Below, one piece after another: positions 1,877 to 28,259 of a stretch of 28,259 nucleotides of DNA (positions are counted from its first letter, which is position 1; every line of letters starts with the position of its first letter). The stretch covers positions 1 to 28,259 of IMG/VR virus record IMGVR_UViG_3300020463_000103. The stretch is one strand, 5' to 3'. Source of the stretch: a virus. The notes under the pieces were generated by a model that saw nothing but the letters and a program-made list of their open reading frames with translations, searched no databases and was not told the origin of the DNA. The position numbers were made by a program, and so were the translations under genes.

Positions 1877-1885
1877 GAGAATTAG

Positions 1886-5141: not shown

Positions 5142-5159
5142 AATTTAATTTACCTCTTT

Positions 5160-10345: not shown

Positions 10346-10363
10346 TGACTTTCCTCGTTTTTA

Positions 10364-11383: not shown

Positions 11384-11384
11384 T

Positions 11385-11570
11385 TCACTTTACCTCTTTT
11401 TTAACTTTTTGATCTTTGATTTCTACTAAAAATTCTTTGGCTTCTTTAGGCATAGAATCAAGCTCTACCACTTTACCATTTTTTAATCTTGCCCAATCTG
11501 CCCAGTCTAACCCTAAGTAACTTTTACCTTTAGGTAAGACGCCTTCTTTCTTTTTGTACTTTTTAGCCAT
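11385..11570 (-). CDS. Hypothetical small tail-region protein, 61 aa
   Basis: It has AAGGAGTTAATT as ribosome site and lies between the neck paralogs and tail tube with tight spacing. The protein is Lys-rich at both ends (MAKKYKKKEG, DQKVKKEVK) with a central segment YLGLDWADWARLKNGKVVEL. No domain is recognised. A beta hairpin around the Trp pair is possible. Its placement suggests a structural accessory or assembly role, but nothing more can be stated. Confidence 0.6.
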   Translation of the reverse strand: MAKKYKKKEGVLPKGKSYLGLDWADWARLKNGKVVELDSMPKEAKEFLVEIKDQKVKKEVK

Positions 11571-11572
11571 AA

Positions 11573-14307: not shown

Positions 14308-14527
14308 CTTCCTTCTCTTCTTTCAAAGAAGAATTAAGTTCTGTAGAAAAGTGATTTTTTGCTGCTTGAAGTTGTTGTGCTTGAAAATTCATTCGACCAA
14401 GCTGTATATCTAAATCTCTAATTTGATTTACCATAATCTTTTGTTCGTCATTTAAATCATCAAATTTTACTTCTTTGCCATCTTCTAGCACTACTTTAAA
14501 TTCATCTTGTTTTGTTTCTTTAGACAT
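14300..14527 (-). CDS. Hypothetical acidic coiled-coil protein upstream of holin
   Basis: A 75-residue protein with a very strong ribosome site, GGAGGAC, four bases before the start. The N-terminal third is a beta hairpin (EFKVVLEDGKEVKFDDL); the rest is a long helix with QIRDLDIQLGRMNFQAQQLQ and a Glu/Lys-rich end. It overlaps the holin gene by eight bases, so it belongs to the lysis transcript. Similar short proteins accompany structural genes in several marine phages as I recall. A holin regulator or virion accessory protein are possible; I cannot choose. Confidence 0.6.
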   Translation of the reverse strand: MSKETKQDEFKVVLEDGKEVKFDDLNDEQKIMVNQIRDLDIQLGRMNFQAQQLQAAKNHFSTELNSSLKEEKEDA

Positions 14528-14535
14528 TTGTCCTC

Positions 14536-14555
14536 CAGTATGTTTAATAATACTG
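14536..14555 (-). promoter_or_regulatory. Small hairpin directly before a strong ribosome site
   Basis: CAGTAT and ATACTG form a six-pair inverted repeat with an eight-base loop. On the minus-strand mRNA it ends immediately before GGAGGAC, the ribosome site of the gene at 14527. It may protect the 5' end of a processed lysis transcript or modulate initiation. The arms are AT-rich and the stem is short. Confidence 0.3.
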
Positions 14556-14566
14556 AATATAACAAA

Positions 14567-14806
14567 TTATGAATATCTACGCATTCTTTTTCTTGTTTTG
14601 CGAGAATACTTAGCTCGTTGCTTTCCTGCTTTAGTTGCTTTTCTTTTTTTACGAGTTTCGTATGCGTATTCTGATTTAGTCATTGCTTTTAACAATCGTT
14701 CAGGCAAATATCTTTCACCAGTTTTCTTAGAAGGTTTACCAGATTTGGTACGCCATTTTTGTTTTGTCCACCTACGTAGACTTTTCTGTGATTTCTTGAG
14801 AGCCAT
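14567..14806 (-). CDS. Small basic phage protein (DUF5872-like)
   Basis: The 79-residue, very basic product starts in a TAATG overlap. It carries WRTKSGKPSKKTGERYLPER, then AMTKSEYAYETRKKRKATKA and an Arg/Lys-rich tail. This set is familiar from small hypothetical proteins in marine phages, which I recall being labelled DUF5872; the label needs a search. No catalytic residues are seen. High charge and position in the late operon suggest nucleic-acid or capsid-interior association, but that is inference. Confidence 0.65.
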   Translation of the reverse strand: MALKKSQKSLRRWTKQKWRTKSGKPSKKTGERYLPERLLKAMTKSEYAYETRKKRKATKAGKQRAKYSRKTRKRMRRYS

Positions 14807-14994
14807 TATCTATAACCACCACCTGCTCTTTTGTAAGCAAGTGCTAACATCTGTGCTTTTCTAGCACTCCATTGTCCAGGATTACCACCTTTGTTACCTC
14901 GTAAAATTCTCTGGAATATTCGTTTTCTTAATCCAGGTTTGGTGTAATTTCCTGCTTGATTGACTCTCGATTTTCTTTTCTTTTTTCTAGGCAT
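14806..14994 (-). CDS. Small basic phage protein with GQWSARKAQ motif
   Basis: A 62-residue protein starting MPRKKKRKSRVNQAGNYTKP and ending NKGGNPGQWSARKAQ followed by MLALAYKRAGGGYR. The Gly-x-x-Gly-Gln-Trp-Ser-Ala-Arg-Lys-Ala-Gln block recurs in hypothetical proteins of cyanophages and other marine phages, as I recall. The ATG overlaps the stop of the 33-residue gene upstream in TAATG. Late expression and strong positive charge are the only functional clues. Confidence 0.65.
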   Translation of the reverse strand: MPRKKKRKSRVNQAGNYTKPGLRKRIFQRILRGNKGGNPGQWSARKAQMLALAYKRAGGGYR

Positions 14995-15095
14995 TACTTG
15001 CGCATCTTTTTTAGTATAGCTTTTTGTAAAGCCATAGGTAGTTTCTTTTGTTTTGCTGTCAAACCTTTTTTCTTTTTTTTCATTTTAGTTTTCAT
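14994..15095 (-). CDS. Lysine-rich microprotein, 33 aa
   Basis: A 33-codon frame with GGGGAGATATT as ribosome site, closed by TAATG overlap with the next gene. The sequence is MKTKMKKKKKGLTAKQ, then KKLPMALQKAILKKMRK. The clear ribosome site and exact overlap make it a real gene despite its size. A polylysine start, a turn (GLT), and a short amphipathic basic helix would suit binding to DNA or an acidic surface. It resembles very small proteins in other marine phages from memory. Function unknown. Confidence 0.65.
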   Translation of the reverse strand: MKTKMKKKKKGLTAKQKKLPMALQKAILKKMRK

Positions 15096-15110
15096 AATAT
15101 CTCCCCATAA

Positions 15111-15491
15111 TTACTTTATTTCCATTTTAATTTTTCTTAAGATTTCATCTTCATTGAATCTCATAGAAATTCCTGCTTCAAATCTCATTATCTCTTTACC
15201 CTGTTCAAATATAATTATAGTAGGAACTGTTTTAATATTCCACTCTTTTTTGATAACTGCACCAATTTTCTTATTAGTAAGATCAATCTCTGCAATATAG
15301 CAATCTTTTAATTTTTCTATCTTTAGTCTATTAGAATAATTCCAAGAAGCATTTACTTGCACAACTGCACAATCCTCTAAACTCATTAGTTGTATTTTTT
15401 GAAAAGTGTCTAAATTAACTGATTGAGATTGTAATGGCGATAGCCATAAACAAAAACCAACCAAATATAAGATACCATAATAATAATTCAT
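15111..15491 (-). CDS. Secreted thioredoxin-fold protein lacking CxxC
   Basis: I choose ATG 15491, seven bases after GAGG; ATG 15494 and TTG 15497 are alternatives. The roughly 126-residue protein has a signal-peptide-like N-terminus (NYYYGILYLVGFCLWL, then PLQSQS) and a thioredoxin-like body: CAVVQVNASWNYSNR in place of the active-site strand and helix, and VPTIIIFEQGKEIMRFEAG, with the cis-Pro and the following strands of the fold. The site normally holding WCxxC reads SWNYSN, so disulfide chemistry is not expected. It would act in the periplasm or outer membrane of an infected cell. A fold-based binding role, perhaps in lysis or exclusion, is inference. Confidence 0.6.
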   Translation of the reverse strand: MNYYYGILYLVGFCLWLSPLQSQSVNLDTFQKIQLMSLEDCAVVQVNASWNYSNRLKIEKLKDCYIAEIDLTNKKIGAVIKKEWNIKTVPTIIIFEQGKEIMRFEAGISMRFNEDEILRKIKMEIK

Positions 15492-15500
15492 CATCAAACC

Positions 15501-15797
15501 TCATTTGTTGTTCATATCTATTAGTGTTTCAGTAATAGCTCTAGTATCATCTTTGATGTCATCTACTTTTTCTTCGAGCTTATCTACTTTACCTTCTGTA
15601 TTTAATATTGAATCACGAATCATCTGGTCTTTTAAATCATATTCCATACGTGATACCTCTGGTTCTGGCAATTCTTTTGCAAGTTCTATCTCAGCTTGTA
15701 AAGAATACCACATACCTATAATCATACCTACAGTAACTAGTATGCTTATGCCAGTTTCTATAGATATTGTAAATTTACTATCTTTACCTATTTCCAT
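15501..15797 (-). CDS. Membrane-anchored coiled-coil protein
   Basis: The 98-residue product has AAAGGATATAAA as ribosome site. A hydrophobic segment at about residues 13-32 (ETGISILVTVGMIIGMWYSL) is followed by an acidic helix with heptad-like spacing (GKVDKLEEKVDDIKDDTRAI). A single membrane pass with an extended coiled coil fits an inner-membrane spanin-like or lysis-timing protein, and proximity to the lysis genes is suggestive. No lipobox partner is evident. Similar proteins in marine phages are usually left unnamed. Confidence 0.6.
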   Translation of the reverse strand: MEIGKDSKFTISIETGISILVTVGMIIGMWYSLQAEIELAKELPEPEVSRMEYDLKDQMIRDSILNTEGKVDKLEEKVDDIKDDTRAITETLIDMNNK

Positions 15798-15807
15798 TTT
15801 ATATCCT

Positions 15808-16080
15808 TTACCATTTTACTTTATTCGCCCAATATGCTGCACTCATACGCCCTTTGCGAATATTTTTAGCGTGTCGTGCCTTAAATGCTCTTCTCCTAGC
15901 TCTAGCTTCTGCTGTTCTAGGATTCTTTCCTGCTCCTCTAACACCCTGTTGCCCAAACCTAATTAGCTTTATCTTGCCACCCGATTTAGCCAAAACCACG
16001 TGTGACTTCTTAGGGTGTCTAGGGGTACGCTTTGGCTTATTATATCCACTAAAGCGCATTCCCCTGTATGTAATAGCCAC
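15808..16080 (-). CDS. Basic phage protein (DUF6321-like), GTG start
   Basis: The start codon is GTG (16080-16078), placed five bases after AAGGGG; no ATG is available until residue 8. The 90-residue protein reads MAITYRGMRFSGYNKPKRTP, then KSHVVLAKSGGKIKLIRFGQ with QGVRGAGKNP, then RRAFKARHAKNI and MSAAYWANKVKW. This pattern is common in marine phage genomes and, as I recall, corresponds to DUF6321. It is strongly basic throughout and has no catalytic signature. Its start overlaps no gene but sits three bases after the previous stop. Confidence 0.75.
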   Translation of the reverse strand: MAITYRGMRFSGYNKPKRTPRHPKKSHVVLAKSGGKIKLIRFGQQGVRGAGKNPRTAEARARRRAFKARHAKNIRKGRMSAAYWANKVKW

Positions 16081-16082
16081 GA

Positions 16083-16328
16083 TTACCCCTTAATTGCTTT
16101 TAGATCTACTAATTCAGCATCTAGTTCAACTACTTGTGCTTCAAGACTTGCTTTTCTTTCTTCTGCTTGTGAAATTGCTTCATCTACTGATTTTACATCA
16201 ACAAAATCTACTACTTCCACATCTTTACCTGAAGCATCTTTCATTGTACGCATCATTTTGATTTCAACCATTTTTGGTTGCTCAACTGAAGATACTTCTA
16301 CTGATTTTTCTGAAATTACTTTAGTCAT
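16083..16328 (-). CDS. Hypothetical protein with C-terminal coiled coil
   Basis: I start at ATG 16328 (MTKVISEKSVEVSSVEQ) because AAGGAG lies at good spacing before it, inside the last codons of the tail fibre gene; an ATG at 16346 is less likely. The 81-residue protein has strands around KMVEIKMMRTMKD and VEVVDFVDV, then a helix with heptad pattern (EERKASLEAQVVELDAELVD). Directly following the fibre gene, it could be a fibre assembly chaperone, but small coiled-coil proteins are common and this is unproven. Confidence 0.6.
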   Translation of the reverse strand: MTKVISEKSVEVSSVEQPKMVEIKMMRTMKDASGKDVEVVDFVDVKSVDEAISQAEERKASLEAQVVELDAELVDLKAIKG

Positions 16329-16329
16329 C

Positions 16330-19300
16330 TTATTCTCCTTCTTCAATATATACTAGCTTCTCGCCAGTAAGTTGTTCTACTAATCTTGCCAATTTCATCA
16401 TATCGACATTGACTTTTTTTAATTTACCCTCTGGTGTATGTCTGGTAGAATGATATGCAAACGCCATATCTTCTGATGCTCCATCAGGTATTAATTCAAA
16501 ATTGTGTGGTGAGATAGTTGTGGTATTTCCTAACTCATCTAATACTTTCATTTCTCCACCATCGTTAAATAAAAATGCTGTATTTGCTGCAGCACTTGGG
16601 TTACTTCCGTTGTCTGAAAAACGCATATTACCAACATGGTCAATTAACACTCTCTGATCCATTGTTTGCGATGAAGAAGAACTATCAGAAGTATAAAAAC
16701 CTATTCCTACTTTATCTACATCACTATCTGTTTGAACAGATGCAATCGCACTACCACTTCTTCTTGATGAGCCATCTGCTTTACCAAATGCTAATACTGC
16801 TTGAACATTACCATCGCCATCAGAGCCACCACTTCTTAAAAATATTGCTTCCCCTGCGTGAGTATCATTATCCAAAGTAGGTGCAGTTGTATTTTCTACA
16901 TCTAACTTTGTTTTAGGTGATGTAGTTCCTATACCGACATTTCCTGAAGTATCTATTCTCATTCTTTCATTACCATTATTGGTTTGGAAAGTCATATATC
17001 CACCAAGACTACTTGAACCTCTATAAAAATGAATGGTTGCATTTTCAGTAGTGTTATAATATAAACCAGTTCTAAATGTTAATGGCTCTCCAGTAGTACT
17101 ACCATCATTATAAATTCTATATTTGAATTGTTGCTCAGTAGAATTTTCCACTGCAAAAGCATAATTGTCTTGTGCTACTGATGCTTTCATCTCTCCTGAC
17201 ACATGTAGCTTACTTGCTGGTGATGTAGTTCCTATACCGACTCTTTGAGAATTATCAATAGTCATAGCAACAGTATTATTTGTATATAATCCTAAAGTAT
17301 CAGAAGTATCTTCAGTAAATCGCATAAATTCAGCACCACCAACAAAGAATTGAACTAAATCTGAACTATCTGATGTTATGTAAGTATCATTACCACCATC
17401 TAAGAATAGTTTTTTACCTTCTGCAAGTCCTGTGTTTTGATGTAAGTGGGTAAATGTAGCACTACCATCTAATGTTAAGTATGCTGTTGTACCACCACTT
17501 CCATCATCTGATTTTAGAATTATATCTCCATCGTCTGTATTGTTGATGATATTTAAATTACCAGTATAGTTTTCTACAAATGAATCTGTACCATTGTGAT
17601 TCAGTTGTAAGTCAGAACCTGCACCTATTTTTATTGGATGTGAATCTTGTGGAAACTCAATTCCACTTCCTGCTTCTGTGAGTTTCATTAGTATATCATT
17701 ACCAACAACAATTTCTAATATGTCATCTGCTTGTTCGTGGATATAAGTATGACTACCACCATCTAAGTAAAGTTTTTGAGTTGCATCTATTGCTATATCT
17801 CCACCTGCAACATCTAATTTTACACTTGGTGATGAAGTTCCTATCCCAACATTTTGAGAACTATTAATTCTCATAGCTTCAGCAGCAGATGTTCCTGTAT
17901 GAAAAGCTAATGCCATACTATCATCAAAAGCAGTTTCAGTTAAGATTTTTATAACTGCTGCACCACTATAAGAACCTGTTTTATATCCTATTTCTGCTTG
18001 TGTTCTTGCACCATTAGTTGTATTAACACCTGTATTTGAAAATGTTAATCTTTGTCCTGATGTACTACCACCTAAATCTAATTTAGCACTTGGTGATGTA
18101 GTTCCTATACCGACATTTTGAGAAGCATTGATTGTCATAGCAGAAGTATTATTTGTTTTAAATTCCATTGTAGAATTTGCAACTTGATTTATAATTAATG
18201 GTGCAGTATTGCTTTGTATATGTGTATTGCTACCATCGTGATAGAGTAATAAATCTTCCCCTGCACCAATCTTAAACTGCTTATTATCTACTGGTATTCT
18301 TAAGTCTTGTGATACATCAACTCTTGTAGCACTACCATCTAATGTTAGGTAAGCAGTTCTTCCACCACTTCCGTCATCTGTTTTTAAAACAATATCTTTA
18401 TCGTCATTTAAATTTTCAATTATTATATCACCAGTTCCGTCATTGTGAATATAAGAATTTGAGCCATCGTGATATAAATTAAAGTCATTAGAAGTTCCTA
18501 ATCTAATTTTTTGATTATCTCCCATACGAAGATTATTATTGGGAAGTAATGTTCCAGCATCACTTGCATCTATTCTTAATGCAGTAACAGTTGAGCCACC
18601 ATCGTTTACTCTAAAATATATATCGCTATCTGAAACAGTATTATCCATAAATAAAGCTCCAGTATAATTCTCTATAAAGGAATTAGTTCCATTGTGTTGA
18701 AATCTTAAATCTTGTCCAGCTCCAATAGCTAAATATTGATTATCGTTAGGTAGTTTAACTTGCCCTACATTACTTGCATCAATTTGTAATGCATTAATTT
18801 GTGAGCCACCATCATTTACACTAAAAAATATATCTGCATCAGAAAGAATGTTTCTAATATTTACACTTCCGACATCACTATCTATATAAGAATTAGTGCC
18901 ATCGTGATACATTACCATATCTTTTGATGAACCTACACCTAAACGAACATTGTCCATTGTAAATACTGAGTCTGTTCCAGACTCTTCAATTCTCATCATC
19001 AGAACTCCACCAGAATATATATCTATTAAATCTCCTGCTGATTCAGTTATATAAGTGCTACCACCACCATCTAAATAAATCTTACCAGTTGCTGCTATTG
19101 CTAAATCTGTTCCATCAAAAGTAAGATTAGCTTCTGCATTCATAGCATCTGTGCCAGTAGCAGTTACAATTCTGTTATTGCTACCATTAGCCATAAAGTC
19201 TGATACATCTACACTTATAGTAGTGCTTGATATATCTATACCAGTTCCTGCTGTGTCAAGTGTTGCGTCTAACTGCGTTTGAATATTAGAAGTTACTCCA

Positions 19301-21252
19301 TCTGTATAATTTAATTCTGCTGTGGTAGCTGTTACTCCGTCCATTATGTTTAGTTCGGCAGCAGTAGCAGTCACTCCATCAAGGATATTAAGTTCTGCTG
19401 TTGTAGAAGTAATTCCATCTAATACATTAAGTTCAGCAGCCGTGCTTGTAACTCCATCTAAAATATTAAGTTCAGCAGCAGTTGATGTAACCCCATCTAG
19501 TATGTTTAGTTCTGCTTTGGTAGAGGTAATACCTAAGTTTGTGATCGCATTGGCTTGTTGTGTGCCAGTTAAACCTTGTGAAGCTGTATCTACTCGTAAT
19601 CTATTGCCTAATGCAGTAGAAGTAGTTGTAGAGAAATTAGCGTCATCGCCTAATGCTGCTGCTAATTCGTTTAATGTGTTCAAAGCTGCTGGAGAAGAAT
19701 CTACTACTCCTGCAACTTCTGCGTCCACATACGCTTTAATGCTTTGTTGTGATGATAGTTTAGTTGCACTATTAGAAGCCATATTATCTTCATCTAATAT
19801 TGCACTACCACTCACGCCAGTATTAATAACTGGACTTGTTAAAGTTTTATTTGTTAATGTTTGAGAACTTGTTAGTTGAACAATATCGCTATTAGTAATA
19901 GATGCAATCTTTGTTGCAGTAGCTGCATTACCAGTAGTATCCTGGTTAAGTGTACCAACAACTAAATCTATTGTTCCATCTCCATCTTGATAAGTAGCAG
20001 TAATTCCAGTTTCGGTATTACTACTAAACATTGCTCCTACGACATCTTGTATTTCTTCATCGGTTTGATCTGCTGTCGCACCTGATTCAATAGCATCTAA
20101 TTTAGTTTTATCTCCGTTCGCAAAAGCTCCTTCTGATGGTTTAGCTTGTAGTGTAGAGATTGTTACTCCCTTAACACCTGCCAAGTCAGTTAATTCTGAA
20201 TCCATCAATGCACCTGCTGAGGTTACATTAGCTGTATCGGTTACATCTGCACTACTTTCAACTGAGTCAAGTTTTGTTTCTTGAGCATCAGTCATTAATC
20301 TTTTGTTAGAAGCGTCAGTAAAGTTAGTAGTTGTAAATGTAGGTGTTGCTCCACTTACTACTGATTGGTCTAATGCTTTTACATCTGCGATACTTGTGAG
20401 TTCGCTGTCCATTAACGCACCAGCACTTGTTACATTGGCAGTATCTGTTACATCTGCACTTGCTTCAATAGCGTTTAGTTTACTATGGTCTGCATCAGTA
20501 AAGACATTTGAATCTGATGCTGATTCTACTGCAGTTCTAATTTCTGCATTTGTTTGGTCAGCAGTAGCACTAGCTTCTATACCATCTAACTTAGAGTGGT
20601 CAGCATCTGTAAATACATTAGAGTCAGAAGCACTATCTACAAGCGTTCTTATTTCAGAAGCTGTCTGATCTGCAGTAGCACTTGCTTCTATTGCGTTTAA
20701 TTTATTTAAAAGTGTTGTTGTAAAATTATTATCTGATTGTGTGGCTACTGATAAATCTATTGTGCCATCGCTATCCTCGTAAGTAACAGTAACACCTGAC
20801 TCGGTATTACTTGAGAACATTGCTCCTACTATATCTTGAACTTGTTCTGAAGTTAAAGTTGCTTCAATCTTTGCATCAAGTTGTGTTTGAATATTGGAAG
20901 TTACTCCATCAAGAAAATCAAATTCAGTAGATGTAACACCTGTGGCGTGTAAAGTATCTAAATAATTTAGTTCTGTTACACTACCAGTATATCCGTCAAG
21001 TACATTTAATTCTGCTGCAGTAGATGTTACTCCATCTAAAATATTTAATTCAGCAGTAGTTGCAGTAAGTCCGTCTAATAAATTTATCTCTGCAGCTGTG
21101 GCAGTAACACCATCAAGAATATTTAACTCTGTTGCTGATGAAGTAACTGCATTTAGTTTAGTCAAGTCTGCTTGTGTAACACCACTAGAACTTACTTTTG
21201 TAACTGACGCATCTATTACAGATCCTGTATGAGTTGATGTAAAATTAGCCAT
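16330..21252 (-). CDS. Repeat-rich tail fibre protein, 1640 aa
   Basis: This is the largest gene of the window, with AAAAGGAGATAG as ribosome site. Residues about 30-120 and 570-655 are tandem 11-13-residue repeats around AAELNILDGVT. Residues 120-420 hold longer repeats around DADHSKLDGIEASATADQT. From about 650 the pattern switches to beta-rich units (LYHDGSNSYIHN, TAYLTLDGSA, MRIEESG). Four copies of VGIGTTSP followed by KLDV or KLHV occur near residues 1049, 1137, 1340 and 1440, as in fibres that end in a chaperone domain. No obvious S74 peptidase domain follows; the end is HTPEGKLKKVNVDMMKLARL. It probably binds the host receptor. Its place between capsid and lysis genes, away from the other tail genes, is unusual. 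Confidence 0.85.
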   Translation of the reverse strand: MANFTSTHTGSVIDASVTKVSSSGVTQADLTKLNAVTSSATELNILDGVTATAAEINLLDGLTATTAELNILDGVTSTAAELNVLDGYTGSVTELNYLDTLHATGVTSTEFDFLDGVTSNIQTQLDAKIEATLTSEQVQDIVGAMFSSNTESGVTVTYEDSDGTIDLSVATQSDNNFTTTLLNKLNAIEASATADQTASEIRTLVDSASDSNVFTDADHSKLDGIEASATADQTNAEIRTAVESASDSNVFTDADHSKLNAIEASADVTDTANVTSAGALMDSELTSIADVKALDQSVVSGATPTFTTTNFTDASNKRLMTDAQETKLDSVESSADVTDTANVTSAGALMDSELTDLAGVKGVTISTLQAKPSEGAFANGDKTKLDAIESGATADQTDEEIQDVVGAMFSSNTETGITATYQDGDGTIDLVVGTLNQDTTGNAATATKIASITNSDIVQLTSSQTLTNKTLTSPVINTGVSGSAILDEDNMASNSATKLSSQQSIKAYVDAEVAGVVDSSPAALNTLNELAAALGDDANFSTTTSTALGNRLRVDTASQGLTGTQQANAITNLGITSTKAELNILDGVTSTAAELNILDGVTSTAAELNVLDGITSTTAELNILDGVTATAAELNIMDGVTATTAELNYTDGVTSNIQTQLDATLDTAGTGIDISSTTISVDVSDFMANGSNNRIVTATGTDAMNAEANLTFDGTDLAIAATGKIYLDGGGSTYITESAGDLIDIYSGGVLMMRIEESGTDSVFTMDNVRLGVGSSKDMVMYHDGTNSYIDSDVGSVNIRNILSDADIFFSVNDGGSQINALQIDASNVGQVKLPNDNQYLAIGAGQDLRFQHNGTNSFIENYTGALFMDNTVSDSDIYFRVNDGGSTVTALRIDASDAGTLLPNNNLRMGDNQKIRLGTSNDFNLYHDGSNSYIHNDGTGDIIIENLNDDKDIVLKTDDGSGGRTAYLTLDGSATRVDVSQDLRIPVDNKQFKIGAGEDLLLYHDGSNTHIQSNTAPLIINQVANSTMEFKTNNTSAMTINASQNVGIGTTSPSAKLDLGGSTSGQRLTFSNTGVNTTNGARTQAEIGYKTGSYSGAAVIKILTETAFDDSMALAFHTGTSAAEAMRINSSQNVGIGTSSPSVKLDVAGGDIAIDATQKLYLDGGSHTYIHEQADDILEIVVGNDILMKLTEAGSGIEFPQDSHPIKIGAGSDLQLNHNGTDSFVENYTGNLNIINNTDDGDIILKSDDGSGGTTAYLTLDGSATFTHLHQNTGLAEGKKLFLDGGNDTYITSDSSDLVQFFVGGAEFMRFTEDTSDTLGLYTNNTVAMTIDNSQRVGIGTTSPASKLHVSGEMKASVAQDNYAFAVENSTEQQFKYRIYNDGSTTGEPLTFRTGLYYNTTENATIHFYRGSSSLGGYMTFQTNNGNERMRIDTSGNVGIGTTSPKTKLDVENTTAPTLDNDTHAGEAIFLRSGGSDGDGNVQAVLAFGKADGSSRRSGSAIASVQTDSDVDKVGIGFYTSDSSSSSQTMDQRVLIDHVGNMRFSDNGSNPSAAANTAFLFNDGGEMKVLDELGNTTTISPHNFELIPDGASEDMAFAYHSTRHTPEGKLKKVNVDMMKLARLVEQLTGEKLVYIEEGE
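16916..18118 (-). repeat. Four dispersed DNA repeats encoding VGIGTTSP units
   Basis: Near-identical segments start at about 16916, 17219, 17829 and 18092. Three share an unbroken run of more than 20 bases (containing GTAGTTCCTATACCGAC); the one at 17829 differs at several bases. Each encodes SVGIGTTSPS-like residues in the fibre gene and continues into related sequence. They could support unequal recombination that changes fibre length. Confidence 0.65.
19280..19530 (-). repeat. Second LNILDGVT tandem repeat array in tail fibre
   Basis: Seven consecutive units of about 36-39 bases encode variants of TAAELNILDGVTS. Codon choice varies between units (for example AATATTAAG versus AATACATTA) although the protein repeat is nearly constant, indicating an old array under protein-level constraint. 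Confidence 0.7.
20895..21155 (-). repeat. First LNILDGVT tandem repeat array in tail fibre
   Basis: About seven units of 30-40 bases encode the TAAELNILDGVT repeat and its variants (ELNYLDTL, EFDFLDGV) near the fibre N-terminus. The same protein repeat recurs in the second array 1.4 kb away. Confidence 0.7.
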
Positions 21253-21270
21253 ATTAATCTATCTCCTTTT

Positions 21271-21306
21271 AGTTTAGGGGAGTGTATTTCAACTCCCCAA
21301 TAAACT
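21271..21306 (-). promoter_or_regulatory. Strong bulged hairpin between capsid and fibre genes
   Basis: AGTTTA plus GGGGAGT (21271-21283) pair with ACTCCCC (21292-21298) and TAAACT (21301-21306), leaving an AA/TT two-base bulge and an eight-base loop: 13 pairs in all. On the minus-strand mRNA it starts one base after the capsid stop and ends just before the fibre ribosome site. No U tract follows, so it is not a classical terminator. It may protect the capsid mRNA end or reduce expression of the fibre and later genes. Confidence 0.7.
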
Positions 21307-21307
21307 A

Positions 21308-22174
21308 TTAGTCTACATTTACGAAATTAACAATTCCAGCATCTGTACTATTTGCAGCTTGTGCTAACACAGCTCCGAATAATACATCAGCTACAACAGA
21401 TGTAGCCAAGTGATCAAGGTCATAAGAACTTTGAACTCTTGGAGAAATTTGTTGTGCAAAGTAAACTGAATCTCTACTAAAGATAGATGCAGTTTCTGAG
21501 GTTGAAGTACCACCCTCGTCCCAATCTGTACTTGCGTATAGTGGTAAGCCATAAGCAGAAATAATTCTACCAGTAGCTAAAGGATTTTGTTCATCTCCTC
21601 TTTTTTGAGCTTCAGTAAACTCTCCTAAACCAAGCATAGACATATATGTTTTAGGGGAAGCATACATATAGAAAGATCCGTCTGCGTAATCGTGTCCAGC
21701 GTCCAGAAGTTTTTCTAGTCCATTTCTGAATAAAGCAGTAGTCATTGTGTCATCTGCTGCTAGTCCTACATTATTACCACTTGCACCTTTAATAGTAGTT
21801 GCAAGAAAACTCTCTACTTTCTTAGCTAAAGCATAACCCATTGATTGTGCATAAGCATTAAATAGATCTGCAGATTCTTGAACTCTTACGATGTCCTCGA
21901 TTCTTTTTGCTTCGTAGAAGTGTTGATCAACTGTTAATTGTCTAACACCGTCTGTTTGTGCAGAATAAGTTACTGCACTATCAGCTGATTTCGCAGCTGC
22001 TGTTTCTTCCTTAACTTTTGGTATGTTAAGAATGTCGCCACCATTTGATAACATAGATGAAAAATCTGATACTTGATTTCTTAACTGAAATTTTCTTTCA
22101 GCATAATCAAGAATTGCATCTCTCCACATCTCTGGTATGAAATTGACAGCTGTTGATATTGTTACATTTGCCAT
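21308..22174 (-). CDS. Major capsid protein (HK97-fold)
   Basis: The 288-residue protein starts MANVTISTAVNFIPEMWRDA, with AAGGAGAGTAAATAAA as ribosome site. The sequence shows an N-terminal arm and helix (ILDYAERKFQLRNQVSD), IPKVKEETAAAK, a spine-helix region (QSMGYALAKKVESFLATTIK), YMYASPKTYMSMLG and GRIISAYGLPLYASTDW, all typical of short HK97-fold capsid proteins. No prohead protease gene is seen, and no long delta domain is present, matching use of a separate scaffold encoded just upstream. A hairpin follows the stop. It forms the icosahedral shell. Confidence 0.9.
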   Translation of the reverse strand: MANVTISTAVNFIPEMWRDAILDYAERKFQLRNQVSDFSSMLSNGGDILNIPKVKEETAAAKSADSAVTYSAQTDGVRQLTVDQHFYEAKRIEDIVRVQESADLFNAYAQSMGYALAKKVESFLATTIKGASGNNVGLAADDTMTTALFRNGLEKLLDAGHDYADGSFYMYASPKTYMSMLGLGEFTEAQKRGDEQNPLATGRIISAYGLPLYASTDWDEGGTSTSETASIFSRDSVYFAQQISPRVQSSYDLDHLATSVVADVLFGAVLAQAANSTDAGIVNFVNVD

Positions 22175-22198
22175 TTTATTTACTCTCCTTAAAAATGA

Positions 22199-22750
22199 TT
22201 ATTTTTTTTTAAGGTAATGACTTATCAAGTCTTTATGCGATCCTCTACGACTTTTTTGATCAGTTAGTTCGTTAAAAGGATTTCCTTTAAACTTACTAAC
22301 AGACACTTGATTTTCAACTTGTCCTACATTAACACCAGACTTTGAATCAAATTCTGATGCTATGTCACGCAAAAGAGATAAATCATCTACCTTCTTAAAT
22401 TTTTCTCTTTTCGTTTCAGGAATTTTACTTAGAAGAGAATCTTTTTCTTGATTGACATAATTAGAAAAAGATTCATTAATCTCGTTAAACTTAGATTGTA
22501 AATCTTTATTCTTATTTTGCTCCTCAACTAACAGAGCTTTGTATTCGCCTTGCTCTTCTAAAGTCTTTTTACGCTGTTCTTCCTGTGCAGTTGCTACTTC
22601 TTGAACTTGTGATTTTAATTCATTTCGTTCTTTGACTAGCTCCTGAAAACGATAATATGGAACAGCTTCTTGTGTCTTTTTTTCGTCTTGACTGACTTGA
22701 GGATTTTTTACAGCTTCCTCTACGGCTGTATTCTGTGTTTCTTCAGACAT
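22199..22750 (-). CDS. Capsid scaffolding protein
   Basis: The 183-residue protein begins MSEETQNTAVEEAVKNPQVS, with AAGGAG at seven-base spacing. It is Glu/Gln/Lys-rich and mostly helical, with a coiled coil across about residues 35-105 (RFQELVKERNELKSQVQEVA). The C-terminus is basic (QKSRRGSHKDLISHYLKKK), as in scaffolds such as that of P22, where a basic helix-turn-helix contacts the coat protein. Position directly before the capsid gene is canonical. It should direct procapsid assembly and leave before DNA fills the head. It is the first gene of the late minus-strand operon. Confidence 0.88.
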   Translation of the reverse strand: MSEETQNTAVEEAVKNPQVSQDEKKTQEAVPYYRFQELVKERNELKSQVQEVATAQEEQRKKTLEEQGEYKALLVEEQNKNKDLQSKFNEINESFSNYVNQEKDSLLSKIPETKREKFKKVDDLSLLRDIASEFDSKSGVNVGQVENQVSVSKFKGNPFNELTDQKSRRGSHKDLISHYLKKK

Positions 22751-22805
22751 TTTAACTCCTTGAGTGGATTATTATATGGTATTAAGTTAAATATAGATTA
22801 AATTA
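22751..22805. promoter_or_regulatory. Divergent promoter region between scaffold and terminase
   Basis: Fifty-five AT-rich bases separate opposite-strand start codons. On the minus strand a perfect TATAAT (22776-22771) sits about 15 bases before the scaffold ribosome site; no good -35 box is apparent. On the plus strand TTGAGT (22760-22765) and TAAGTT (22783-22788) are a weak pair with 17-base spacing. Both late operons must start here or be read through from elsewhere. Confidence 0.5.
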
Positions 22806-24137
22806 ATGACAATCAGAATGTCAAAGAAAATAAAAGAGTTTGAGTTCAAACAAAAATGGTTTGATTATATGCAATATCAACCACACGAAGGGCAAAAAAA
22901 ATTGCATTTTCCTGACAAATCTGACGCATCTTATTTCGTAAACATTTGTGGTAGAAGGTATGGTAAAACTACTGCAGCATTTCGTGAAGCTGAATTTTAC
23001 GCAGCACAACCTAATAAAAAAATATGGCTAGTTGGATTATCTTATAAAAAATCACGATTAATGTTTAGAGAAATCTGGAAAGATATGGTAGCAGGTAAAG
23101 CAAACGATATTGATAGAGCATCTGAAAAAGAACAGTATATAAAATTTAAATGGGGAACAACAGTAGAAGGTATGTCTTGTGAAAACCCAGACTCGCTAGT
23201 CGGAGAAGGGGTAGATTTATTAATTATAGATGAGGCAGCAAAAATGCCAAGAAGAATATGGGATATGTATTTATCTCCAACTCTTGTAGATAGAAAAGGT
23301 AAAGCCATCTTTATTACTACCCCAGAAGGATTTAATTGGATATATGATTTGTTTTTATTAGGTCAAACAGATCCTCAATGGTATTCACAACAATCTCCAA
23401 GTTGGGAAAATCAATATGCGTTTCCAGAAGGAAAGAAAGATTCTTTTATCCAGGAAAGAAAAAGAAATATGTCTAAAGAACTATTCGACCAAGAGTTTGC
23501 AGCAAAGTTTACATCAATGGAAGGAAGAGTATATCCATTTGACAGAGAAATAGATATGGGAGAAGTTCCATATCAAGAAAATTTACCAACCTATTGCTCA
23601 ATGGACTTTGGGTTCAGAATGCCATCAGTATTATGGTTTCAAACTTATAAGCAAGATGGTAATTGGCATATTAATATTATTGATGAAATAATACACGAAA
23701 GAAATATACCAACAGATAAATTAGCAGAAATGATAAAGAAAAAGAATTATCCAGTAATTACTTACTATGGTGACCCTGCTGGTAGCTTTGTGCAAGGACA
23801 ATCTGGATTAGGAGATATTCACATCTTACGCAGACACGGAATTTATGTAGAATACAGAATGGACAAACTATCTCGTGATATACAATCTGGTGTGAGTTAT
23901 TGTCGTGGATTTTTTGAAAATGCAGATGGTTTAAGAAGAATAAAGATAGATAAAAAATGTGTAGGTATCGCAGAAGATTTTGAAGGATATAGATTTCCAG
24001 AAGCAGTAGAAGGCAAAGCTATCTCTAATAACCCAATCAAAGATGGATACTATGAACACGGCTGCGATGCTTTCAGATATTTTATCTTGAATAGATTTCC
24101 AATTAGAAGTAATTTCGTTGGAAGAATACCAAGATAA
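22806..24137 (+). CDS. terL: Terminase large subunit
   Basis: The 443-residue protein has the expected two domains. The ATPase part has a Walker-A-type GRRYGKTT (49-56), Walker B LLIIDEAA (138-145) with D142 and E143, and coupling motif FITTPEG (169-175). The nuclease part has Asp residues in SMDFGF (D267), YYGDPAG (D323) and CDAFRYF (D421). It packages DNA into procapsids and cuts it. The start has no clear ribosome site; ATG 22818 is an alternative. It is encoded on the plus strand, opposite to the small terminase and to capsid genes. Length is typical. Confidence 0.95.
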   Translation: MTIRMSKKIKEFEFKQKWFDYMQYQPHEGQKKLHFPDKSDASYFVNICGRRYGKTTAAFREAEFYAAQPNKKIWLVGLSYKKSRLMFREIWKDMVAGKANDIDRASEKEQYIKFKWGTTVEGMSCENPDSLVGEGVDLLIIDEAAKMPRRIWDMYLSPTLVDRKGKAIFITTPEGFNWIYDLFLLGQTDPQWYSQQSPSWENQYAFPEGKKDSFIQERKRNMSKELFDQEFAAKFTSMEGRVYPFDREIDMGEVPYQENLPTYCSMDFGFRMPSVLWFQTYKQDGNWHINIIDEIIHERNIPTDKLAEMIKKKNYPVITYYGDPAGSFVQGQSGLGDIHILRRHGIYVEYRMDKLSRDIQSGVSYCRGFFENADGLRRIKIDKKCVGIAEDFEGYRFPEAVEGKAISNNPIKDGYYEHGCDAFRYFILNRFPIRSNFVGRIPR

Positions 24138-24149
24138 AAGGAACGCTAA

Positions 24150-25454
24150 ATGGTTTTAACCCCACAAGAGATTATAAAAGATTCATTAACTAATTTTAAA
24201 GAAGAACAAGCGAAAGCTAGAAGAGAAGAAGTAAGAAAGTTTTTAGATTATTATTCTGGCTCTTTAACCGAGCAATACATAGAGGGTTATTTTAAATCTG
24301 ACGCCTTCCAGGAAATCCCACATTACAATACAAACATTGTAAAGAAGTTTGTAAATCGTATGTCAAAAATTTATACTATTGGTGCTAAGAGAAATGTCAA
24401 TGACAGGTATGTAGATTTGTCATCAGTTAAGAATGCTCGTATGAAACAAATGGAACGAATGACTCGTTTGCTTGGTACTTGTGCAACTTATGTTATGTAT
24501 GATGAAATGGAAGAACGATTTGAATATCGTCCTATTTATTATTTTGAGCCATACTTTGGTGACAATCCATACAGACCTGAAGCTATTGTATATCCAATGA
24601 TGCACGGACACGCAGATTTATCTGATACAGATGATTTAATGTATGCTTATTGGGACGGGGATAGACATATTAAGTTTGATGACAATGGAAACATTATAGA
24701 AGAAATAGAACACAATATTGGTATATTGCCTTTTGTTTTTTCACACAGAGAAGAACAATTAGATTCTTTCTTTGTGGAAGGTGCATCAGACTTGGTATCT
24801 GCTAATGAACATATCAATATTACTATGACCGAAATGCAGTTAGGATTAAGATTTCAAATGTTTGGACAGCCAGTAGTAACTGGACTTATATCAGATAATG
24901 CAAACGTAAGAGCAGGATCAGATGAAATCTTAACATTGCCAGAAGGAAGTAATTACGACATTGTATCTCCAGAGGGAAATGTAAGAGATGTTATTGAAAA
25001 CATTAAGTGGCAAATAGAATTGGTAGCATTGAATAATCACTTGTTCGTTACTTTTGCACAATCAGGTGGTGAAGTACCAAGTGGTATTTCTTTAATGATT
25101 AAAGACTTAGAACGCCACGAAGATTTTATTGATGACAAAGAATTATATCGTCAATATGAAAAAGATTTCTATAAAGTAGAATATGCTTTATCAGAAATAA
25201 ACAGCTTAGGTTTACCAAAACCATCTGAGTTTAAAGTAGACTTTTCTGAAGTTGAATATCCTATGACTACTCAAGATAAGATTATGTTAAATGAATACAA
25301 GCTGAAACATAACTTAACTACACAAGCAGAATTGTTAGCAGATGAAAATAGAGATTTAACTATTGAAGATGCTATACAAGTAATTGCAGATAATAAATCA
25401 ATGAATGAAGTAGAGATAGTAGAAGATGATAATCAAGATACACAACAAAGTTAA
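24150..25454 (+). CDS. Portal protein
   Basis: The 434-residue protein follows the terminase after 12 bases with AAAGGAACGCTAA as ribosome site. It has the layout of SPP1-gp6-like portals: a basic N-terminal helix (EEQAKARREEVRKFLDYYSG), NIVKKFVNRMSKIYTIGAKR, a beta region with YFEPYFGDNPYRPEAIVYPM, then SANEHINITMTEMQLGLRFQ, QSGGEVPSGISLMIKDLERH in the tunnel/helix region, and an acidic tail (EVEIVEDDNQDTQQS). It forms the dodecameric ring for DNA entry and the docking point for terminase and connector. It overlaps the next gene by 29 bases. Confidence 0.9.
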   Translation: MVLTPQEIIKDSLTNFKEEQAKARREEVRKFLDYYSGSLTEQYIEGYFKSDAFQEIPHYNTNIVKKFVNRMSKIYTIGAKRNVNDRYVDLSSVKNARMKQMERMTRLLGTCATYVMYDEMEERFEYRPIYYFEPYFGDNPYRPEAIVYPMMHGHADLSDTDDLMYAYWDGDRHIKFDDNGNIIEEIEHNIGILPFVFSHREEQLDSFFVEGASDLVSANEHINITMTEMQLGLRFQMFGQPVVTGLISDNANVRAGSDEILTLPEGSNYDIVSPEGNVRDVIENIKWQIELVALNNHLFVTFAQSGGEVPSGISLMIKDLERHEDFIDDKELYRQYEKDFYKVEYALSEINSLGLPKPSEFKVDFSEVEYPMTTQDKIMLNEYKLKHNLTTQAELLADENRDLTIEDAIQVIADNKSMNEVEIVEDDNQDTQQS

Positions 25455-25932
25455 TTTTAACTTTCACAAAGTTCAATCTAAAGTAATAAAACAATTAGTT
25501 AATAAAAGACTTAAACGAATTGCTGACTTTGCAAAAAAGAAAGTAAGAGATACTTTTAGAAAAGAAAAAAATATTGATGGTAGCAATTTCCAAACATTAA
25601 GCGAAAAATATGTAGAAATAACCGAACGTCCTAATCGTCCTATTATGGATAGAACTGGAAACTTGAAAAAAAGTTTGCATTCAAGAAGCTCTATAAAAAC
25701 AAACACTAATGAAATGACAGTTTCCTATGGTACAAATGAAGAACAATACGAACCACATTTGAAAGAGGGTGGTTATAAAGGAAAATTTGGTAGAGTTCCA
25801 CAAAGAAAATTCTTTTATACCTCTGATGAAGAAGCGTTTGATATAGTAAAAGAAAAGATTGCAACTGAAGTAGATGAGTTTTTGGACGATTTTATAAGGA
25901 ATCTTTCAACAAGTATGCGTAAACTACATTGA
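25426..25932 (+). CDS. HK97-gp10-like / phage virion morphogenesis protein
   Basis: The 168-residue protein starts at ATG 25426 inside the portal gene; no later in-frame ATG precedes the conserved region. It contains a basic helix (RLKRIADFAKKKVRDTF), DRTGNLKKSL, VSYGTNEEQYEPHLKEGGYK, and VPQRKFFYTSDEE, the ordered signature of phage morphogenesis proteins related to Mu gpG and HK97 gp10 that act in head completion or head-tail joining. The final helix (ATEVDEFLDDFIRNLSTSM) is typical as well. Here it sits with the portal rather than among the other neck genes. Its stop overlaps the next ATG. Confidence 0.8.
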   Translation: MIIKIHNKVNFNFHKVQSKVIKQLVNKRLKRIADFAKKKVRDTFRKEKNIDGSNFQTLSEKYVEITERPNRPIMDRTGNLKKSLHSRSSIKTNTNEMTVSYGTNEEQYEPHLKEGGYKGKFGRVPQRKFFYTSDEEAFDIVKEKIATEVDEFLDDFIRNLSTSMRKLH

Positions 25933-26153
25933 TGGAAGATTTAATAAAAGAAATATTTAAAATGGTTTCACAGATAAAAAGAATATCTGAAGCTAATAAT
26001 GATCTACTCGGATTTGTATGTTCTAAGGTTGCTCCAACCAAAAAAATTACCATCAAAGAAATAGATTTATTAGATGTAGCTTATATCTCAATGGAAATGT
26101 CAGAAATATTTGAAGAGTATGATGTTATGCCTGAGGACTATGGGATTGCTTAG
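25932..26153 (+). CDS. Hypothetical small helical protein, 73 aa
   Basis: I place the start at ATG 25932, overlapping the upstream TGA by one base. The 73-residue protein is predominantly helical and acidic at its end (MEDLIKEIFKMVSQIKRI, EIDLLDVAYISMEMSEIFEE). No family is recognised. Its last 29 bases overlap the end of the minus-strand small terminase gene, so two transcripts converge within coding sequence. It is last in the plus-strand packaging block, and an assembly role is only suggested by position. Confidence 0.6.
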   Translation: MEDLIKEIFKMVSQIKRISEANNDLLGFVCSKVAPTKKITIKEIDLLDVAYISMEMSEIFEEYDVMPEDYGIA

Positions 26154-26793
26154 TTTCTAATTCTGCTAACTTTTCTAACCACTTTCTTTTTTCACTCGCA
26201 GTAGGTCGTCTTTGTGGCAATGGCTCTAGTCCAACTTTCTTTGCTCTTTGCAATAATGCGTATCTAGCAGCTCTATCCTCTCTTAATTTTTGCCTATATG
26301 GTTTTTTACCCTTCTTTATTCTTTCTACTGCTTTCTTTTCTTTTATCTGACGCTTTTGAGGTTTGTCGTTTTCTGGATTTCTTTCTGGAAGTGTTTCTAG
26401 TATTTCTGTAACCTCTTCGCTTTCTGCGTCTATAATATCCTCTGCGTCTATTTGTTCTGCTTTTAAGAACTTCTCAAATGGACTATCTACAGTTACATTG
26501 ATGTTTTTAACTAGTTTTCCTGAATGTTCTAATACCAGACGCCCTGCCTGGACATTGCCTTCAATAGCTTCTCGAATCATACTATTTAATACCATAGGTA
26601 ACTTTGCATTAAAAGAAACCATATACTTCTTATAATACATATCAACAAATCTATCATCAGCAAACCAAGATTGTATAGTTCTATGACTAACATTTATTTG
26701 CTCGGCTATTTGTTTTTTATTTAAATCAGGATTATGTATCATTAAATCAATAGCAGCCATTTGATTGGCTTTTTTTAGTTCGATATTACTCAT
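26125..26793 (-). CDS. terS: Putative terminase small subunit
   Basis: The 222-residue protein begins in an ATGA overlap. It has an N-terminal helix-turn-helix (NKKQIAEQINVSHRTIQSWF, about residues 25-45), then YYKKYMVSFNAKLPMVLNSM and AIEGNVQAGRLVLEHSGKLV, a pattern shared by phage small terminase subunits that read the pac/cos site. The C-terminal half is highly charged (KAVERIKKGKKPYRQKLRED) and may contact the large subunit or DNA. It lies 2 kb from the large subunit and on the opposite strand. A DNA-binding regulator is the alternative, but the helix-turn-helix plus AGRLVLEHSG pair favours terminase. Confidence 0.72.
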   Translation of the reverse strand: MSNIELKKANQMAAIDLMIHNPDLNKKQIAEQINVSHRTIQSWFADDRFVDMYYKKYMVSFNAKLPMVLNSMIREAIEGNVQAGRLVLEHSGKLVKNINVTVDSPFEKFLKAEQIDAEDIIDAESEEVTEILETLPERNPENDKPQKRQIKEKKAVERIKKGKKPYRQKLREDRAARYALLQRAKKVGLEPLPQRRPTASEKRKWLEKLAELETKQSHSPQA

Positions 26794-26933
26794 TTACCTT
26801 GCCCTCTATATTTTTTCTTATAATACTTCTTTGAACCTTTTGTGCCGTATTTAGTATTAGAGCTTCTACCTTGTCGAGTTTTTTTTGCACCATTTGACTT
26901 CCTAGTGCGTTCCTGAAATAAAGATTTTCTCAT
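26790..26933 (-). CDS. Lys/Arg-rich small protein, 47 aa
   Basis: The start at 26933 forms an ATGA overlap with the stop of the upstream gene; the frame extends further to 26987 but that part lies inside the membrane protein gene. The 47-residue product (MRKSLFQERTRKSNGAKKTR, then SSNTKYGTKGSKKYYKKKYR, then GQGK) is extremely basic and low in hydrophobic residues, so probably disordered until bound. Nucleic-acid binding is plausible. Its stop overlaps the small terminase start in ATGA, implying coupled translation. Confidence 0.55.
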   Translation of the reverse strand: MRKSLFQERTRKSNGAKKTRQGRSSNTKYGTKGSKKYYKKKYRGQGK

Positions 26934-27145
26934 TTCTTGTAGACTTTTTCTGCTCCTGCGATTCCGAATGAACCTAGTGTAACCCAAACAAATGAGTTAT
27001 AGATGTAGTCGTTTACCATTAATTCTATTCCAATAATACCCATTGCTAAATCTACGACGCCAAATACACACATCAACGCAAAGGATAGAAAACCTATAAT
27101 ATTCTTTTCATTGTATTCGTTTTTATCTTTAAATAATTCCCACAT
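26930..27145 (-). CDS. Small two-helix membrane protein, holin-like
   Basis: The 71-residue protein has AAGGAGAAGTA as ribosome site and starts in TAATG. After a charged N-terminus (MWELFKDKNEYNEKN) it has two hydrophobic stretches, about 16-42 (IIGFLSFALMCVFGVVDLAM) and 49-65 (IYNSFVWVTLGSFGIAG), and a basic tail (AEKVYKK). Size and topology fit a class-II-like holin or a pinholin/antiholin, but a different membrane role is equally possible. A separate holin is found beside the endolysin at 14307. Confidence 0.55.
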   Translation of the reverse strand: MWELFKDKNEYNEKNIIGFLSFALMCVFGVVDLAMGIIGIELMVNDYIYNSFVWVTLGSFGIAGAEKVYKK

Positions 27146-27279
27146 TACTTCTCCTTTTTCTTAGGTCTAAATATTTTCTCCCAACGCTTTTCGTATTCTT
27201 TTTTAGAAATACCTATAGGTCTAGGCACATCGCCTTTACCTGCACCGTTAGGTTTTTTATAAATGCTCTTTTCTTTCAT
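27145..27279 (-). CDS. Basic microprotein with GAGKGDVPRP motif, 44 aa
   Basis: A 44-codon frame closes by TAATG with the membrane protein gene and opens in ATGA with the upstream gene. It reads MKEKSIYKKPNGAGKGDVPR, then PIGISKKEYEKRWEKIFRPK and KKKEK. A Gly-Lys-Gly-Asp-x-Pro-Arg-Pro core followed by a Tyr/Trp helix is a pattern I recall from small proteins in many phages. The function of those is unknown to me. Real coding is supported by the paired overlaps. Confidence 0.6.
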   Translation of the reverse strand: MKEKSIYKKPNGAGKGDVPRPIGISKKEYEKRWEKIFRPKKKEK

Positions 27280-27407
27280 TTACTATATTTTAAAAACTTG
27301 CTTTTCTTTATAGGGTTGCGTTTCAGTTTGGCTTTAATGCTCATCTTACGCATTCCATAAAGACGTTTAGGTATAAAGTTTCTAGCAGATGATACGGTAA
27401 CATTCAT
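27276..27407 (-). CDS. Basic microprotein, 43 aa
   Basis: A 43-codon frame: MNVTVSSARNFIPKRLYGMR, then KMSIKAKLKRNPIKKSKFLK and YSK. It is bounded on both sides by ATGA overlaps. It has no acidic residues at all and could wrap around nucleic acid. No strong ribosome site is visible, so translation is probably by coupling to the gene before it. I do not recognise the family. Confidence 0.5.
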   Translation of the reverse strand: MNVTVSSARNFIPKRLYGMRKMSIKAKLKRNPIKKSKFLKYSK

Positions 27408-27583
27408 TTTCCAACCTTACGCATTGCTGCAGTATGAGCTTGTTTAAAGGTTTTACCTTTTCTCATTGCTGCTGCCATAGATCGTAAATGTCCTTTGGTG
27501 TGATGAACCTTATGTCTGCTCATCTGTTTTTTTTGTGTTTTGTTTAATCCTTTTAGACTAACACCTTTTAAATTTTTAGCCAT
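27404..27583 (-). CDS. Basic His-rich microprotein, 59 aa
   Basis: A 59-codon frame (MAKNLKGVSLKGLNKTQKKQ, then MSRHKVHHTKGHLRSMAAAM, then RKGKTFKQAHTAAMRKVGK). It starts in TAATG overlap with the 24-residue gene and ends in ATGA. The His cluster HKVHHTKGH and the helix MAAAMRKGKTFKQAHTAAM recall small phage proteins with a helix-loop-helix outline that I have seen in marine phages; metal binding is possible. No function is known to me. Confidence 0.6.
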   Translation of the reverse strand: MAKNLKGVSLKGLNKTQKKQMSRHKVHHTKGHLRSMAAAMRKGKTFKQAHTAAMRKVGK

Positions 27584-27657
27584 TACTTCTTCTTACCTTT
27601 CTTCATCTTTTTCTTTTTCTTTTTCTTTTTTCTCATTGTACCTGTGTGGTATGGCAT
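27583..27657 (-). CDS. Polylysine microprotein, 24 aa
   Basis: A 24-codon frame with a clear ribosome site, AAAGGAGATAGTT, before the ATG. It reads MPYHTGTMRKKKKKKKK, then MKKGKKK. The ribosome site, the TAATG overlap with the next gene and the surrounding operon argue for real translation in spite of its size. It resembles the polylysine start of the 33-residue gene at 15095. Binding to DNA, RNA or acidic proteins is the obvious guess. Confidence 0.55.
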   Translation of the reverse strand: MPYHTGTMRKKKKKKKKMKKGKKK

Positions 27658-27659
27658 AA

Positions 27660-27815
27660 CTATCTCCTTTTTTTTAATTTGTCTTTTGGACAATATCTTA
27701 AATAATCTACTCTTGTTTCTACCTTTTTACCTGTGGCTAAACCACAATAAGTAAGCTCTTTTTCTTTCGCTGCAAACGAACAATGAGCTTTTATTAGTGA
27801 ACAGTAATCAAACAT
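27660..27815 (-). CDS. Cysteine-rich small protein, 51 aa
   Basis: A 51-codon frame starting in TAATG overlap with the upstream gene and ending TAG at 27660. It reads MFDYCSLIKAHCSFAAKEKE, then LTYCGLATGKKVETRVDYLR, then YCPKDKLKKRR. Cysteines at 5, 12, 24 and 44, with His 11, could bind a metal, though spacing is irregular. It looks like a short treble-clef or disrupted zinc-finger domain. No family is recognised. Its last codons supply the AGGAG ribosome site of the microprotein gene that follows. Confidence 0.55.
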   Translation of the reverse strand: MFDYCSLIKAHCSFAAKEKELTYCGLATGKKVETRVDYLRYCPKDKLKKRR

Positions 27816-28018
27816 TAATCTATATCCAATTCTTTGTATAATTTACGATCTGGCATAGAACCTGCACCATTTATAACTAATAATGGCTTAGAAGGTATCC
27901 TTTTTACAAGAAATTTTTCCTTACAACATACACATCTTTCAAGTGGATCATCTGTCATTTTCTGCTCCACCTCAAAAATATTATCAGTTTCAAGACATAT
28001 ATAATCGTATTTAGGCAT
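27815..28018 (-). CDS. FmdB-like zinc ribbon protein, degenerate first knuckle
   Basis: The 67-residue protein MPKYDYICLETDNIFEVEQK, followed by MTDDPLERCVCC and FLVKRIPSKPLLVINGAGS, matches the FmdB-type zinc ribbon layout (KYDYxC near the start, then CxxC, then a Lys/Arg-x-x-S strand). The first CxxC is degenerate: only Cys8 remains, replaced by CLET. Three cysteines in CVCC and Cys8 could still bind metal. The start lacks a clear ribosome site. It is the first gene of the small-protein/terS operon; a nucleic-acid-binding regulator is plausible but unproven. Confidence 0.65.
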   Translation of the reverse strand: MPKYDYICLETDNIFEVEQKMTDDPLERCVCCKEKFLVKRIPSKPLLVINGAGSMPDRKLYKELDID

Positions 28019-28090
28019 ACAAGCAATTTAGGGGTAAAAAACAATAAAAAACCACCAAAATTTAGGATTGGTTGTCTAGTTATTTTTGTA

Positions 28091-28107
28091 TTAAAGTAAT
28101 ACTTTAA
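28091..28107. promoter_or_regulatory. Candidate operator, 17-bp perfect inverted repeat
   Basis: TTAAAGTA-A-TACTTTAA has two 8-bp arms around one central base, the shape of a dimeric repressor site. It lies 73 bp before the terS operon start and 127 bp before the plus-strand gene. The early winged-helix protein or an unseen regulator could bind it. Confidence 0.5.
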
Positions 28108-28134
28108 CCTAAATACCTATCTCTACTATATATC

Positions 28135-28146
28135 GTCGTTTACGAC
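28135..28146 (+). terminator. Short hairpin with T tract in the control region
   Basis: GTCGT-TT-ACGAC is a short inverted repeat followed on the plus strand by AATTTTTTATTTT. With a four-base stem (GTCG/CGAC) and TTTA loop it could act as a weak terminator or as an operator half-site. It is too short to be convincing. Confidence 0.25.
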
Positions 28147-28234
28147 AATTTTTTATTTTCTTGATTTTAATATATACTGTATTAAATTATTACTATTTAG
28201 TTAGTCGTTAACTATGGTTTTGCAAGGAATACTA

Positions 28235-28259
28235 ATGGACTACCATGTACTAACAAAAT
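28235..28259 (+). CDS. Start of a plus-strand gene leaving the window
   Basis: ATG at 28235 is preceded by AAGGA at six-base spacing. Eight codons are visible (MDYHVLTK) before the window ends. The divergent control region just upstream and polarity matching the early operon suggest the first gene of an early transcript, but the protein cannot be identified from eight residues. Confidence 0.45.

Follow-up and report, generated by a model that had tools for sequence, protein, structure and literature searches.

We have found that a 3.3-kb block of late genes is inverted as a unit against the other late genes in a group of marine phages, represented here by the virus record IMGVR_UViG_3300020463_000103, of which a stretch of 28,259 bases (the window) was analysed. 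The block comprises the genes for the large terminase (TerL), the portal protein, a neck protein and a 74-aa protein. Few features of tailed phages are usually held to be as stable as the order of their head and packaging genes; in this one group, the motor-portal block flips repeatedly and its neighbours stay put. It is probable that the block inverted as a unit and has its own TerL-facing promoter when inverted, that flips are rare and fixed, and that the close relatives with the usual gene order have re-inverted. Because the block flips repeatedly while its neighbours stay in place, the two arrangements provide natural before-and-after pairs, which bear on whether synthesis of TerL and portal has to be separate from that of the shell, and on what a phage operon loses or gains on being reversed.

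Gene content and orientation of the packaging block

The window begins with early genes on the plus strand (1-4278), followed by a minus-strand run of tail, lysis, fibre, major capsid protein (MCP) and scaffold-like genes (4512-22750), the plus-strand block (22806-26153), and the small terminase (TerS) with small genes on the minus strand (26125-27145). The sign of the GC skew changes at the block borders, tracking the strand switches. On the left flank, the MCP (21308..22174, minus strand) matched phrog_267 (E 6e-24) and Pfam PF25209. The scaffold-like protein (22199..22750, minus strand), an open reading frame that adjoins MCP in relatives, had no family match in the PHROG search and is named for the position of its gene before MCP. 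Within the block, all on the plus strand, TerL (22806..24137) matched phrog_2 (E 3e-41) and PF03237, the portal gene occupies 24150..25454, and the neck protein, which resembles HK97 gp10 (25426..25932), matched phrog_26 (E 2e-9). The last gene of the block encodes the 74-aa protein (25929..26153) and stays with the block in both arrangements. TerS, on the right flank (26125..26793, minus strand), matched phrog_2538 (E 1e-9). The initial annotation, which placed TerL, portal and a gp10-like protein on the plus strand between scaffold and capsid on the left and TerS on the right, both on the minus strand, is thus borne out by open reading frames and family matches.

The window portal had no Pfam or PHROG match at E 0.01 and no match at E 1e-5 among 50,697 phage records, whereas 5 of its 22 aligned relatives matched PHROG portal families (phrog_145/104). 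Its predicted fold (pLDDT 75) matched solved portals, with a Foldseek E of 3e-11 to 8zdj and a VIA-align Z of 20.5 over 331 residues to 8v8b, solved portals scoring at Z of about 20; the predicted structure identifies the product as a portal. Among close relatives with portals at least 77% identical, the neck gene was either missed by tblastn or 26-96% identical, a far wider spread than in the adjoining genes, which looks like allele replacement within the block. In relatives with the usual order, the alignment to the annotated window TerL begins no earlier than about residue 6, so the annotated start is probably 12 bp (four codons, 22806-22817) too early, the true start probably being the ATG at 22818 (MSKKIKEF).

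Elsewhere in the window, a gene for a 1640-aa fibre protein (16330-21252) directly follows MCP and carries repeats 39 nt apart (19270-19572 and 20965-21189). Two adjacent early open reading frames, 1613-1876 and 1886-2245, begin with 28-nt sequences that are 89% identical, which is probably a duplication. The tape measure protein weakly resembles those of pelagiphages, and a search of a genome collection with portal and TerL patterns, made with a view to the host, found no relative.

In order to compare gene orientation, window proteins were placed by tblastn on related IMG/VR loci, and each record was labelled A where the block was inverted, i.e. on the strand opposite to its flanks, or B where the usual co-oriented order was found. 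The close set (108 records, window included) was obtained after dropping the window's own locus (L114) and L092, which lies on the same contig as L022. It held 96 A records, with both flanks opposite in 65, the TerS side only in 19 and the scaffold side only in 12, and 12 B records, with both flanks readable in 8 and one in 4. Orientation in the distant set was labelled from iterated profiles; the label of the 74-aa gene may have drifted in these profiles and was left unused. After removal of L181, L193 and L194, which share contigs with L202, L183 and L188, respectively, and with L184, L187 and L240 unlabelled because they have no TerL with a readable flank, 44 of 53 distant records were A and 9 were B. 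Altogether, 140 of the 161 labelled records were A and 21 were B. The initial annotation had treated the inverted order as a departure from the usual run; for the window's group it is the norm, and not an oddity of one genome.

A promoter-like motif facing TerL

The divergent gap between the scaffold-like gene and TerL (22751..22805; 55-56 bp in core A records) contains a candidate -10 region facing TerL, TTAAATTA (22798..22805, plus strand). The motif was sought in the 110 nt upstream of scaffold, where TAATTTAA reads TTAAATTA on the TerL strand. It was present in 96 of 110 A records (68/70 core, 28/40 distant) and in none of 14 B records (8 core, 6 distant). Counted by lineage, 15 of 22 A representatives carried it and 7 did not, against 0 of 5 for B; among distinct core leaders, it was found in 21 of 22 from A and 0 of 3 from B. 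The motif was chosen after the sequences had been seen. In 500 dinucleotide shuffles, on average 1.3 and at most 6 of the 22 representatives carried it, compared with the 15 observed. It was also the commonest 8-mer, and no 8-mer exceeded 7 in the shuffles. Restricting the comparison to the 15 distant A representatives, the motif occurred in 9 (shuffle mean 0.9, maximum 5).

Of the 15 representatives with the motif, 7 (L183, L195, L202, L203, L204, L212 and L214), which correspond to about four independent lineages, had a hexamer beginning with TTG at a distance of exactly 18 nt ahead of TAAATT; at spacers of 14-17 and 19-21, TTG occurred in none of the 15. Core records, including the window, retain the -10-like part and lack the TTG at -35. 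Together, the motif and the TTG-N18 arrangement resemble a promoter of the sigma-70 type directed at TerL. Should the motif at 22798-22805 serve as a -10 region, the TerL RNA is possibly near-leaderless.

The motif might instead simply reflect A+T-rich sequence or the scaffold promoter, with TerL transcribed some other way. The region is indeed A+T-rich, and a general sigma-70 scan of 20500-28259 showed no excess (27 found, 33 expected). Neither base composition nor a scaffold promoter, however, readily accounts for a count so far above the shuffles, for a TTG at one exact spacing, or for the absence of the motif from B records, where the scaffold leader persists; we regard this explanation as unlikely. 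Close B records keep the leader and appear to have lost the motif, which is what one would expect had TerL ceased to need it. The initial annotation held that the inversion demands separate promoters, and to the extent that a separate promoter is implied, the conserved motif in the gap of A records provides a candidate for it.

Most likely, the block forms a late transcription unit of its own, with its own promoter. In A records, it is hypothesized that transcription of the block would start within the gap between scaffold and TerL, at a promoter that faces TerL and stands back to back with that of scaffold, as is the case in phage P2, and that TerS would be made from a third transcription unit. 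Separate timing of the packaging genes, raised by the initial annotation, is one conceivable consequence. A terminator-like hairpin on the plus strand (26755-26770) was considered as a stop for the block RNA and rejected, since the same sequence occurs in some B records as well, is not found in all A records and follows the TerS codons. In the corresponding gap of L223, a palindrome (TATACAG-A-CTGTATA) lies beside the TerL-facing motif and is a possible shared regulator site.

Age, number and borders of the inversions

In a TerL tree of the close relatives (94 rows), all 12 B records fell on one side of a single branch with 99% SH-aLRT support. An outgroup was sought by scanning for a TerL motif variant that is absent from the close relatives. 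Of the 12 matches, 10 were sister lineages and all 10 were A. A further scan with one sister lineage, L183, yielded 55 loci with identities down to 27%, and every sister lineage with a TerL at least 63% identical to that of L183 and a readable flank was A. In a protein tree of TerL from 46 representatives, of which 38 are A and 8 are B, orientation changed at least three times and the close B clade lay inside A at supported nodes; the portal tree (42 rows) also had three changes. Grouping all B representatives as one clade was rejected by the AU test (p 2e-5; p 1.9e-4 without L237, the one long branch on which the deep root leans), as was a single clade of all A (p 1.9e-4). Rooting with a non-reversible model and with distant cultured TerLs, whose branches are saturated, was weak in both cases and was not relied upon.

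Since the close B clade is nested deep within A, these trees place the inverted order as the ancestral, long-standing state of the window's group, and the close B clade is most simply read as a re-inversion to the usual order. Re-inversion would have put TerL behind TerS again, with an overlapping start, and the TerL-facing motif would then have decayed. By the initial annotation, relatives with the usual order would speak against the inversion; 12 close and 9 distant relatives of this kind were found, but they do not refute the inversion, since the close ones fall within the inverted group.

The alternative polarity, in which B is ancestral for the close group, A arose once within it, and the nesting reflects recombination or a rooting artefact, has several points in its favour. 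The distant cultured phages examined are co-oriented, the TerS-TerL overlap of B appears canonical, and the 29 bp by which TerS of A runs into the antisense of the 74-aa gene could be a scar. A derivation of A from B had been argued from that antisense overlap and was overturned by the sister lineages: those with readable flanks between the core and the deep B records are A. Given these sisters, the supported nesting of close B within A and the rejection of a single A clade, a B ancestor is distinctly improbable.

The borders of the block are constant among close relatives and lie just upstream of TerL and just after the 74-aa gene. In B records, the 74-aa gene and scaffold are separated by the scaffold leader and its AAGGAG ribosome site; in both arrangements, the leader from the divergent gap remains upstream of scaffold. 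TerL of B starts within the end of TerS, and TerS of core A records extends into the antisense of the 74-aa gene by 29 bp, or in a few by 26 bp, a convergent overlap that marks the right border of the inversion in the window (26125..26153). Therefore, a flip moves exactly the segment from TerL to the 74-aa gene.

We propose that these flips arose rarely, by accidental recombination at the block borders, became fixed, and would not represent a switch. A switch would imply that growing phages invert the block by means of an invertase or short inverted repeats, A and B being states of one virus. Both orders do occur among close relatives, and a 9-bp inverted match joins the borders in 7 of 68 core A records. 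However, inverted matches of at least 8 bp were present in just 14 of the 68 (median p 0.35), with no inverted repeats conserved at both borders, and invertase-type border repeats were rejected as a general mechanism. No near-identical block was found in both orientations among the records, the closest A/B TerL pairs being 86-88% identical in nucleotide sequence, and the close B records form one clade for TerL. A growth-phase switch is therefore very unlikely. Judged by eye, a crossover at the 9-bp match found in some A records, AATTAGAAT/ATTCTAATT, would yield junctions near those of B, which is suggestive only. That the assembler inverted the block in the window's contig, an uncultured virus contig of 28 kb and a concern of the initial annotation, is refuted and has essentially no probability left, as the 96 independent close records with the same order, i.e. 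the window and 95 others from many datasets, have homologous junction sequences and the sister lineages share the order too.

B scaffolds are 96.5-99.5% and B MCPs 92-99.6% identical to those of some A record, and the B portal of L049 is 97.7% like an A portal. The B records do not form a single clade in the core trees for portal, MCP, scaffold and TerS, which need 2 to 5 changes; we read this as recombination. Tracts of 95-98% identity between B and A records, up to 2.4 kb long, begin at the inversion border (L101, 3218-5660; L059, 5667-7468) and point to recent exchange of flanks across arrangements. By these comparisons, flanks and even the portal gene appear to have been exchanged freely between A and B, with TerL bearing no sign of exchange. 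A broader and more tentative reading, which we think has somewhat less than an even chance of being right, is that the block persists, under selection, as a long-lived inversion polymorphism within a single gene pool of marine phages that recombine freely. It would be separately promoted in most lineages and occasionally flip back, each flip would rewire expression as the promoter is kept or lost, and the TerL end would be shielded from exchange between the two forms.

Comparison with known systems

The closest parallel is coliphage P2 (Peduovirus), in which the PQ and ONMLXY operons set TerL (P) and portal (Q) opposite scaffold (O) and MCP (N). In P2, the first pair is transcribed leftward, and scaffold, MCP and TerS (M) rightward. 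As judged from open reading frames and families, the window has the same divergent layout, with TerL and portal on the strand opposite scaffold and MCP and with the TerL end facing scaffold. Divergence of TerL-portal from scaffold-MCP is described as a trait of P2-like phages (PMC10612066). Divergent start sites, annotated or mapped, share the TerL-scaffold gap of P2, and the window gap carries the TerL-facing motif as a candidate promoter.

Several features differ. In the capsid operon of P2, TerS is encoded downstream of MCP, an arrangement expected of Peduoviridae, whereas the window TerS lies to the right of the block, beyond its far end and in a strand run of its own. Peduoviridae late promoters are run by an Ogr-type activator. 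The TerL-scaffold gap of P2 has an annotated activator site; none is known in the window gap. The lack of a Pfam match for the window portal is a further difference from P2.

Four cultured phages with distant TerLs (about 30% identity), Pelagibacter phage HTVC111P, phage DSL-LC06, Arthrobacter phage Wollypog and Pseudomonas phage hairong, share the module content, TerL and portal being followed by scaffold and/or MCP. Unlike in the window, these genes all lie on one strand. RHEph10 gp169 and hairong_008 were considered as TerS homologues and showed no similarity; the TerL-portal context of RHEph10 reaches the end of its record and is thus silent on MCP.

The literature searched, which mostly excluded subscription papers, yielded the P2 precedent and no report of repeated inversion of a packaging block. 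The divergent layout itself is already known from P2. What looks new relative to that literature is a group unlike P2 in the place of TerS, in which the whole block has flipped repeatedly, one clade has re-inverted, and the promoter-like motif has met a matching fate.
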